Shown in pieces: positions 13,771 through 50,125 of a stretch of DNA of 64,000 nucleotides (position 1 is the first letter of the stretch; each line of letters opens with the position of its first letter). A program made the position numbers and the translations under genes. Below the pieces are notes generated by a model. The model saw only the letters and a list, made by a program, of their open reading frames with translations, was not told the origin of the DNA and did no database searches. Origin of the DNA: Methanolinea sp. (GTDB lineage: Archaea > Halobacteriota > Methanomicrobia > Methanomicrobiales > Methanospirillaceae); NCBI GenBank assembly GCA_024518585.1, contig JANIHI010000002.1, positions 124,001 through 188,000 on the forward strand, read 5' to 3'.

Positions 13771-13784
13771 GGCCCCATATGGTA

Positions 13785-14098
13785 CGGGGACTAGCCCGGG
13801 TGGCCCGGCGTCACCTGTAACCCGAAACCGTCGGCATGCGGGGGGCGAAGTTCGAGGAAGGCAGTACCGGGCTGTCTCTGAGCGGTATGGGCCAACGTTG
13901 AAACCTCGTCCCATGAGGTCGGTGGACAGGACCCAGGACCCCGGAGGGGGTCTCTTGGCCTGTTGTCGCGGGGACCGGTCCAGGCCCGGAAGGGAGCAGA
14001 CTCACCGTGAACATTCGGCGCCCATGGGGGTGCGGGGCGGAGGAGGAACGTGCCGTGAGGGGACGGCAATCGGGCTGTCGACCGAGAACGTGTCCCCA
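13785..14098 (+). ncRNA. ffs: 7S RNA (signal recognition particle RNA)
   Basis: RNA of the archaeal SRP, binding SRP54 and SRP19. The helix 8 hallmark CCAGGCCCGGAAGGGAGCAG (13980-13999) with its GGAA tetraloop and GCAG asymmetric loop is unmistakable. Alu-domain elements CACCTGTAACCCGAAACC and the distal TGCCGTGAGGGGACGG are present. The ends pair: GGGGAC (13786-13791) with GTCCCC (14092-14097), and AGCCCG (13793-13798) with CGGGCT (14071-14076), as expected of archaeal helices 1 and 5. Total about 314 bases, normal length. Exact ends are estimated from pairing. Confidence 0.95.
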
Positions 14099-14122
14099 AT
14101 TTTCCCAAAGTGAGCTGAGCGG

Positions 14123-48132: not shown

Positions 48133-48537
48133 ATGAAGGAGGGGCAGCTCTCTGAGCGCCAGAAAGTCGTCCTGCGCCTGCGAAGGCAGGGCCTCACCCA
48201 GCAGCAGATAGCCGATATCATCCATACATCCAAGGCAAACGTCTGCACGATCGAGAAATCAGCCCTCGAGAATATCCGGAAGGCAAAGGAGACCCTCGAC
48301 TTTTTCTACAGCCTCGATTCGATCCACCTGTGCACCATTGCACCAGGGACAGACCTCCTCGAGGTTGCCCCCCTGATCTACCGTCATGCCGAGGAGAGGG
48401 GCATCAAGGTGAAATACGATACCATCTCGCTCATCAACAAGGTGAGAGACACTCTCCCGCAGAGGGTACGGGCCCGGTTCATCAAGGACGCCATCGACGT
48501 GTACATCGATGACGAGGGCGAGTTGTACTTCAGCTGA
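48133..48537 (+). CDS. Tfx-family transcriptional regulator
   Basis: 134 residues from ATG 48133. N-terminal helix-turn-helix (about 6-45, LSERQKVVLRLRRQGLTQQQ, then IADIIHTSKANV) and a C-terminal acidic domain (VYIDDEGELYF) match Tfx, the regulator first described at the fmd (molybdenum formylmethanofuran dehydrogenase) operon of Methanothermobacter. Here it is divergent from mtd, 212 bases away, so mtd or another methanogenesis gene is a candidate target (inference). Confidence 0.85.
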   Translation: MKEGQLSERQKVVLRLRRQGLTQQQIADIIHTSKANVCTIEKSALENIRKAKETLDFFYSLDSIHLCTIAPGTDLLEVAPLIYRHAEERGIKVKYDTISLINKVRDTLPQRVRARFIKDAIDVYIDDEGELYFS

Positions 48538-48560
48538 GCCGGGCACCCGGTGAGAAGAAG

Positions 48561-48570
48561 GTTTATATTT
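48561..48570 (+). promoter_or_regulatory. TATA box of the structured region before rpl3
   Basis: GTTTATATTT, a near-ideal archaeal TATA, preceded by purine-rich AAGAAG as BRE. It is about 540 bases before the rpl3 ATG, so transcription would begin near 48590. Confidence 0.6.
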
Positions 48571-48589
48571 GTTTCTATCGAATAATTGA

Positions 48590-49040
48590 GGAAGCCTATG
48601 TGGAGCTCGCGGTGTCCCGGCCGTGCCGGGTCACCGAATCATGGAGGAGCTTTATCACAGGAGAGTGGGACCGTTTCCGACGGTCCTGCTTTCCGGGTGC
48701 GTGGTGAGAGATCACCACCGGCTGACATGGTGGATCTGAGACTGGCGTTGACAGGGTGGACGTAAATCCCTCTGGATTTCCGGCCCTCATGGTGGATCGG
48801 TTTCCCGGCACCATAACGCCCCTATCAGTATCTGTTTGCGAGACAGGTCAAAAGGGAGGCAGTACTGCCCCAGAGGTCTTACTGCCTTTCCGCGAGACTG
48901 TGCCCGGACGGAAGGCCGGATGCCGACGTCCGGGGGCAAAGGTGCACGTGCATCCAGGAGAGCGATTCCTGCGATCACTGCCCGGTGTCATGCTCACGCC
49001 CGGGAGCATCAGGAGATCTCCGGATATTTCAGTCGTTCCA
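48590..49040 (+). ncRNA. Candidate structured RNA or very long leader upstream of the ribosomal operon
   Basis: Non-coding but rich in stems: GGTG.CCCGG/CCGGG.CACC (48611-48635), GGACCGT/ACGGTCC (48668-48686), GTGGTGA-GAGA-TCACCAC with a GNRA loop (48701-48718), AGGCAGTA/TACTGCCT (48857-48887), CCCGGACG/CGTCCGGG (48903-48934) and ATGCTC/GAGCAT (48990-49009). It has its own TATA. Either a free ncRNA of about 400-450 bases or the leader of the rpl3 operon. It lacks the conserved cores of RNase P RNA and the 7S RNA. Ends are estimates. Confidence 0.45.
49022..49028 (+). promoter_or_regulatory. Possible proximal TATA of rpl3
   Basis: GGATATT, 84-90 bases before the rpl3 ATG. If used, transcription would begin near 49050, directly before the hairpin at 49060-49079. 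Confidence 0.35.
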
Positions 49041-49059
49041 TCGTAGGCGCAGAAAACCA

Positions 49060-49079
49060 GGACCGGGAAACCCCGGTCC
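49060..49079 (+). promoter_or_regulatory. Strong hairpin in the rpl3 leader
   Basis: GGACCGGG-AAAC-CCCGGTCC, eight GC-rich pairs, ending 32 bases before ATG 49112. A candidate binding site for a regulatory ribosomal protein controlling the whole operon. Confidence 0.45.
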
Positions 49080-49111
49080 GGTTGACGAACAGGTGCAGGA
49101 TTGATAGAACC

Positions 49112-50125
49112 ATGCCCAAGATTAACAAGCCACGTAAGGGATCCCTCGCGTATAGCCCCCGAAAGAGGGCTAAGAGCCCGGTGCCTCGGTACCAGTCATG
49201 GCCTCTCTACCAGGGGGACCCTGTACTCCAGGGTTTCGCCGGTTACAAGGTGGGCATGACCCACGTGATCATGGTCGATGACCACAAGAACAGTCCGACA
49301 GAGGGCAAGGACATCATGGTCCCTGTCACCGTGGTCGAGACACCGGCCATGAAGGTTGCCGCGATACGGGCATACACAAGGGACTCCTATGGAAGGCACC
49401 CCCTCACGGAAGTGTGGGCGGGTGAGCTTGACAGGGCGCTTGAGAAACGGATCACGCTGCCCAGGGAGTACGATGGTTCCGCGGCCATGGCGGCCATAAA
49501 GGACGCGATCTCCCGGGGAGCCGTCGAGGAACTCTTTGCCGTCATGCACACCATGCCCTACCAGGTCTCGGGAGTGCCCAAGAAGGTCCCCGAGCTCATG
49601 GAGATCCGGGTCGCGGGCGGGACCGTCCCTCAGCAGCTGGAGTTCCTTGCCGGACTCCTTGGAAAGGAAGTCCACCTCAAGAACATCATCCAGCCCGGTG
49701 CCTATGCCGACATCACGGCAGTGACGACCGGTAAAGGGACGCAGGGCCCTGTCAAGCGGTGGGGGATCAAGCTCCGCAAGAGGAAGCACGCGCGGGGTGG
49801 CAAGAAGAGGCACGTGGGGAACCTCGGGCCCTGGAACCCCCACCACGTGCGCTGGCAGGTCCCCCAGATGGGCCAGATGGGGTACCAGCAGCGGACCGAG
49901 TTCAACAAGAGGATCCTCAGGATTGGTGACGATGGAGCCGAGATCTGTCCACAAGGAGGTTTCCTCCATTACGGAGTCGTGAGAAACCCGTACGTCCTGA
50001 TCAAGGGGTCGATCCCGGGACCCGTCAAGCGCCTCGTGCGGATCCGCCCGGCCATCCGCCAGGGAGAGCACGTGGTACGACAGCCTGCGATCGAGTTCGT
50101 GAGCACGGAGAGCAAGCAGGGGTGA
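49112..50125 (+). CDS. rpl3: Ribosomal protein uL3
   Basis: Large-subunit assembly protein near the peptidyl transferase centre; first gene of the long operon. 337 residues from ATG 49112 ([20 protein letters not shown]). The frame is open 92 codons upstream but that part lacks protein character. Typical [20 protein letters not shown] and the tryptophan-finger region [19 protein letters not shown] are present. Confidence 0.97.

Follow-up and report, generated by a model that had tools for sequence, protein, structure and literature searches.

In Escherichia coli, the S10 operon carries an L4-responsive leader through which it is placed under autogenous control. The leader proposed in this work resembles that element in lying upstream of an L3-L4 operon that it would control, but it comes from another domain of life and has another RNA fold, and the likeness seen here is one of role. 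The closest described archaeal system is RF03135, reported as a leader in Archaeoglobi (Eckert and Weinberg 2020); its proposed ligand, L4, was assigned from an earlier bacterial case, the motif was rated borderline by its own authors, and the main text of that report makes no mention of an overlap with a gene (PMC7247131). Our literature search, which covered the main text of the RF03135 paper, found no account of the Methanomicrobiales RNA described below or of an overlap between RF03135 and PF02598.

The locus is located in the window, i.e., the whole 64,000-nucleotide stretch of DNA analyzed here, which belongs to a Methanolinea-like metagenome-assembled genome (MAG); among named genomes, the closest relatives of its L3 protein are found in Methanolinea MAGs. 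According to the list of open reading frames (ORFs), 574 nt separate the stop codon of a Tfx-family gene (48537) from the ATG of rpl3 (49112), in agreement with the initial annotation, which had noted a gap of more than 500 bases. The near-ideal TATA box that it had placed at the head of this gap is present as GGTTTATATT and is kept throughout the order. The same annotation described the gap as structured, and the predicted fold of the gap strand is indeed better than chance (minimum free energy (MFE) of -214.8 kcal/mol, z = -4.39, with none of 100 dinucleotide shuffles as good). The features are given below; R1 denotes a covariance model of the conserved core, built from 35 cores of the organism's own family.

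48133 to 48537, + strand: 5' neighbor, gene of a Tfx-family DNA-binding protein (PF14601 TFX_C, E = 4.5e-29)
48560 to 48569, + strand: leader TATA box GGTTTATATT (sequence; conserved across families)
48585 to 48600, + strand: putative transcript start and conserved 5' block (..AATTATGGAAGCCTAT.. in relatives), placed by conservation and distance to the TATA box
48594 to 48606, + strand: 5' strand GCCUAUGUGGAGC of the candidate closing helix P1 (MFE fold; clade-specific cognate pairing)
48659 to 48694, + strand: lineage-variable hairpin 5' of the core (MFE fold; sequence not conserved)
48691 to 48849, + strand: conserved RNA core, 94.5 bits with R1 (E = 2.2e-22 in its own genome; covariation; alignment to coding homologues)
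48701 to 48718, + strand: hairpin H1, GUGGUGA-GAGA-UCACCAC (7/7 pairs with both-sided changes, 97.5% paired in 76 sequences)
48732 to 48739, + strand: 5' strand GGAUCUGA of the junction-closing helix H2 (94% paired in 76 sequences)
48744 to 48747, + strand: 5' strand GGCG of H3, with its partner CGCC at 48817-48820 (4/4 pairs covary)
48754 to 48786, + strand: H4, GGGU (48754-48757) with GCCC (48783-48786) (100% paired in 76 sequences)
48789 to 48814, + strand: hairpin H6, AUGGUGGA..GGCACCAU, variable in sequence with compensatory changes (7/7 pairs both-sided; top covarying pair)
48825 to 48833, + strand: 3' strand UCAG(U)AUCU of H2, one base bulged (94% paired in 76 sequences)
48834 to 48849, + strand: near-invariant 3' extension GUUUGCGAGACAGGUC (conserved in the order and phylum; beyond the 85-nt Rfam model)
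48857 to 48887, + strand: species-level stem AGGCAGUA/UACUGCCU (sequence; conserved in close relatives only)
49035 to 49048, + strand: 3' strand GUUCCAUCGUAGGC of P1 (MFE fold; clade-specific cognate pairing)
49112 to 50125, + strand: 3' neighbor, rpl3, first gene of the L3-L4-L23-L2 operon (ORFs; rpl3 and rpl4 orthologues follow the element in relatives)

Two stems singled out in the initial annotation, the hairpin with the GAGA tetraloop at 48701-48718 and the eight-pair stem AGGCAGTA/TACTGCCT at 48857-48864/48880-48887, were both found. Its statement that no frame looks like protein held for the core, where all three frames contain stops, with a caveat for the L3 frame, which in the window is open upstream of the ATG by 92 codons (48836-49111), back to a TTG at 48836. 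The L3 open frames of relatives mostly begin at the ATG (338 aa), and because they mostly lack this extension, it looks like chance.

Across the order, the TATA box precedes a conserved GGAAGCC start by approximately 25-30 nt, a spacing that suggests transcription from 48585-48600. In the alignment of relatives, the start block AATTATGGAAGCC is conserved along with the TATA box and the core, while the hairpins between them vary. From the end of the core it is about 260 nt to the start of rpl3, with rpl4 next. Directly 5' of the rpl3 ATG, a AGGATTGAT(T)GAA block (49095-49111) is conserved across the order and is unlike a standard Shine-Dalgarno sequence; it may be a regulated initiation site. 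On the other side of the gap, the gene of methylene-tetrahydromethanopterin dehydrogenase (Mtd, PF01993; 47084-47929, - strand) is divergent to Tfx, an arrangement kept in most loci of other families.

In the window copy, 29 of the 33 pairs of R1 are standard. The inner stem of H4 is lineage-specific, and the window version, read from the sequence and the MFE fold, is AAAUCC/GGAUUU. The cognate strands of P1 differ by clade (GCCTAT/ATAGGC, GAAGCC/GGCTTC, CCGCTCT/AGAGCGG), and duplex energies hardly distinguished matched strands from those of mismatched species (-24.4 vs -23.8 kcal/mol), so that this test told little. A long-range P1 helix joining the 5' and 3' ends is plausible, with moderate to weak support.

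The region was recovered in relatives by DNA search, and in its own family the element occupies the Tfx-rpl3 gap, which measures 474-713 nt in those loci that yielded both genes. Within the order, R1 matched 204 of 232 genomes, usually at a single site, and 132 of 135 when the count is limited to near-complete genomes, at E-values that are rough and in a survey containing many MAGs. All complete loci checked had the match upstream of rpl3. Among 20 sampled loci, it lay between Tfx and rpl3 in all 19 from families f2-f6; in the remaining one, from the organism's own family (L118), the contig ends after Tfx and the core. Tfx is the upstream neighbor in the f2-f6 loci checked and in nearly all loci of the own family. 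A second R1 match was seen in G124 (G124:C67:49568-49703), G202, G203, G204, G206, and G220; that of G124 follows an Mtd-Tfx pair at the end of a contig, possibly because the MAG mixes strains.

Of the cells in an alignment of 76 sequences, 92.5% are paired, and both-sided changes were seen in 24 of the 33 pairs; the conservation and covariation for which the initial annotation had suggested looking in related genomes are both present. The covariation score of the same sequences was 0.372, compared with 0.146 after shuffling and 0.05-0.10 for slid partners, and the nine best covarying column pairs all belonged to the structure in a custom covariation test with a phylogenetic null, both results being inflated by the use of R1-made alignments fitted to the structure. 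A plain MAFFT alignment also gave covariation, with a structure derived from that alignment itself. Pairs of G and U are common on the + strand and would become A-C on the opposite one, which suggests that the sense RNA is the functional molecule. These results establish the RNA of the Tfx-rpl3 gap as real, conserved, and folded.

This position, found in nearly every Methanomicrobiales locus examined, together with the conserved promoter and the covariation, favors the earlier suggestion of an unusually long regulatory leader of rpl3. Alternatively, the element could be a stand-alone structured RNA (a ribonucleoprotein component or an sRNA), processed or independently transcribed and acting in trans. 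Its large size, the helix joining its 5' and 3' ends, and the approximately 60 nt left between that closing helix and the rpl3 ATG would fit such a molecule; however, the element lies upstream of rpl3 in the loci checked, the Rfam family that it matches is a cis-regulatory leader, and no second conserved TATA box was found from the element to rpl3 in aligned relatives, leaving the one at 48560-48569 as the only one in the gap. We therefore regard a stand-alone RNA as unlikely and prefer a leader of the rpl3 operon.

As to known families, a search of the gap strand against Rfam returned no match. The RNase P RNA model (RF00373) did not match here, and the copy of this genome is located on another contig (G000:C4:60917-61267); the SRP RNA model (RF01857) likewise did not match, its copy lying at 13784-14099 of the window. 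The initial view that the gap encodes neither RNase P RNA nor 7S RNA is therefore correct, and the other Rfam families were rejected on the same empty search. The window copy does not reach the RF03135 gathering cut-off (34.5 bits) and goes undetected even at E<=10; 19 of 61 Methanomicrobiales relatives pass the cut-off at the same spot. In a phylum-wide search, R1 gave weaker matches beyond the order, one per genome. Twenty of them were fetched; they lie directly upstream of rpl3, and most overlap RF03135 (L4-Archaeoglobi) at 48-78 bits. R1 was trained on sequences of a single family only, yet it reaches the RF03135 position outside the order. Since these matches and many Methanomicrobiales copies coincide with RF03135, the core belongs to its lineage. 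The coincidence shows the two to be homologous, with the core appearing as a divergent, enlarged member. The earlier proposal of an undescribed ncRNA thus holds in part: the core has this known homologue, although the RF03135 model did miss the window copy. Our own initial interpretation, in which the RNA was large, undescribed, and specific to the order, was dropped once the matches beyond the order turned out to be RF03135 and, at a further step, coding sequence of PF02598.

Like RF03135, the window RNA lies upstream of rplC-rplD and contains a three-way junction (CUGA..GGGU/GCCC..hairpin..UCAG) with a variable hairpin arm. Beyond what the 85-nt model covers, it has H1, a 3' GCGAGAC block that hardly varies, the closing helix, and a leader of great length.

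The R1 loci outside the order are intact ORFs of PF02598, a SPOUT RNA methyltransferase, located before rpl3 and related to MT0001 (PDB 1k3r) and human C9orf114/SPOUT1. In a set gathered by protein score alone, PF02598 ORFs again hold the element, and RF03135 matched in 17 of 20 loci from families with few R1 matches. Although annotated as an untranslated leader, RF03135 falls within ORFs of PF02598 across most of the phylum (L120-L139, L254-L273), and both its annotation and the boundaries of its 85-nt model seem to need revision. In family f7 (L277-L282, L285), no PF02598 match was listed and no R1 match was found upstream of rpl3; both the gene and the element seem to have been lost there or to have diverged past detection. 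Within the order, PF02598 was found in 4 of 232 genomes from three genera (G043, G133, G052, and G211), between Tfx and rpl3, and in all four the R1 core lies inside the ORF at 94-99 bits. A search of the other 228 genomes of the order, including that of the window, gave no PF02598 match.

Leaders of gene-less genomes align to the coding version with frameshifts, and some of these non-coding leaders contain frameshifted protein fossils, e.g., REGVVIRHNGLT / VGSDISAWVDVRKTSP. The promoter and the 5' motif are common to coding and non-coding members. The core at 48691-48849, which holds the junction equivalent to that of RF03135, shares its ancestry with the middle portion of PF02598, which codes for the OB insert. 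In coding homologues, GUUGUG..CACAAC, which encodes VVxxHN, takes the place of H1, and the 3' extension GUUUGCGAGACAGGUC reads there as codons ..TCG CGA. The window region thus corresponds to the middle of the gene, at the same place before rpl3, but its SPOUT-coding parts are gone, its frames are broken, and only the RNA core is kept. Judged by these alignments, it is an eroded remnant of the PF02598 gene in which the RNA structure was kept, a point that the initial annotation had missed.

In a tree of Tfx, L3, and L4 with weak deep support, the gene-bearing genera fall in two families and are nested among gene-less relatives, which under a loss-only model implies at least three losses. The methyltransferase was probably lost several times in Methanomicrobiales; the count is uncertain, and regain by transfer is possible.

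The coding copies offer a view of the element before such losses. In them, 92.8% of cells pair, and 17 of 33 pairs show both-sided changes. The coding copies retain a mean of 26.4 pairs, whereas synonymous shuffling would leave 19.8, in a test whose alignment and choice of loci favor the structure. The MFE z-scores of coding versions are weak under the same shuffling (mean -0.87), and the argument therefore draws on the retention of pairs and on constraint at synonymous codons. The latter was assessed in 52 genes picked without an RNA model: at conserved residues, 4-fold codon identity was 0.52 inside the element vs 0.33 outside (P=2e-4), and 6-fold codon identity was 0.63 vs 0.29 (P=0.005). 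Some codons inside the element are fixed, or nearly so: GTC in 42/42, TCG in 50/50, and AGG in 48/52 cases.

These data bear on the alternative that the structure arose only after the death of the gene and that RF03135 elsewhere in archaea is a coding-sequence artefact, a view to which the matches inside ORFs and the borderline rating given by the RF03135 authors (PMC7247131) lend some weight. An origin after gene death predicts no structure in coding copies, whereas these hold the same helices beyond synonymous expectation, and in genes collected independently of the RNA model the synonymous-site constraint concentrates in the element; such a late origin is accordingly improbable. The overlap between RNA element and gene thus most likely predates the loss of the gene. 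We consider it probable that a dual protein/RNA element present across Halobacteriota outlived several independent losses of PF02598 in Methanomicrobiales, each of which turned a gene into a non-coding ribosomal-operon leader, i.e., a parallel gene-to-RNA conversion.

The placement of the element within the gene of an RNA-modifying enzyme family also raises the idea that the methyltransferase itself is the ligand of the RNA and regulates its own synthesis by rRNA mimicry. Most genomes of the order lack the enzyme, the element being kept in about 200 genomes without detectable PF02598, and a comparison with the 23S rRNA of the same organism gave no resemblance: the best local sequence score was within the shuffled range, and R1 yielded only chance scores at the 23S locus (best 6 bits). 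The enzyme is thus a very improbable ligand. A decaying pseudogene without RNA function, whose likeness between species would be residual coding homology, fits the homology to PF02598 with its frameshifts and stops, but is scarcely credible given that about 200 species still have the region although the gene was apparently lost repeatedly, that it shows compensatory base changes and near-invariant unpaired blocks, and that it retained its core while the SPOUT-coding parts vanished.

The reading that we hold with considerable confidence is that of a cis-acting leader of the rpl3 operon, probably bound by L4 (or L3), that formerly shared its sequence with a coding gene and persisted after the gene had gone. 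According to this model, an ancestral RNA element would have overlapped the coding sequence of the PF02598 SPOUT methyltransferase at the head of the operon. When the methyltransferase was lost in most Methanomicrobiales, selection would have kept the promoter, the 5' end, and the folded core, and the remnant would have become a non-coding leader closed by the long-range helix. The 5' leader of rpl3-rpl4-rpl23-rpl2 would be transcribed from the TATA box at 48560-48569, and an operon-encoded ribosomal protein present in excess over rRNA, most likely L4 and possibly L3, would bind the three-way-junction core. The bound leader would then repress the operon in cis, at the level of translation or elongation. 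Regulation of the operon in cis is suggested by the sequence comparisons, and L4 (or L3) is proposed as the ligand by analogy, based on the position of the element, on the bacterial L4 leader as a precedent, and on the assignment made for RF03135.

If this reading is true, a known 'leader', RF03135, would be for the most part an RNA structure carried within a coding gene, and Rfam would need a longer, corrected model for it. Dual coding and gene-to-RNA conversion would then be documented in archaea, and autoregulation of the archaeal L3-L4 operon by a ribosomal protein would become directly testable in culturable methanogens and Haloferax. Methanomicrobiales would represent a natural experiment, with the protein lost and the RNA retained, indicating that the function of the RNA is separable from that of the enzyme and arguing against the methyltransferase as its ligand.
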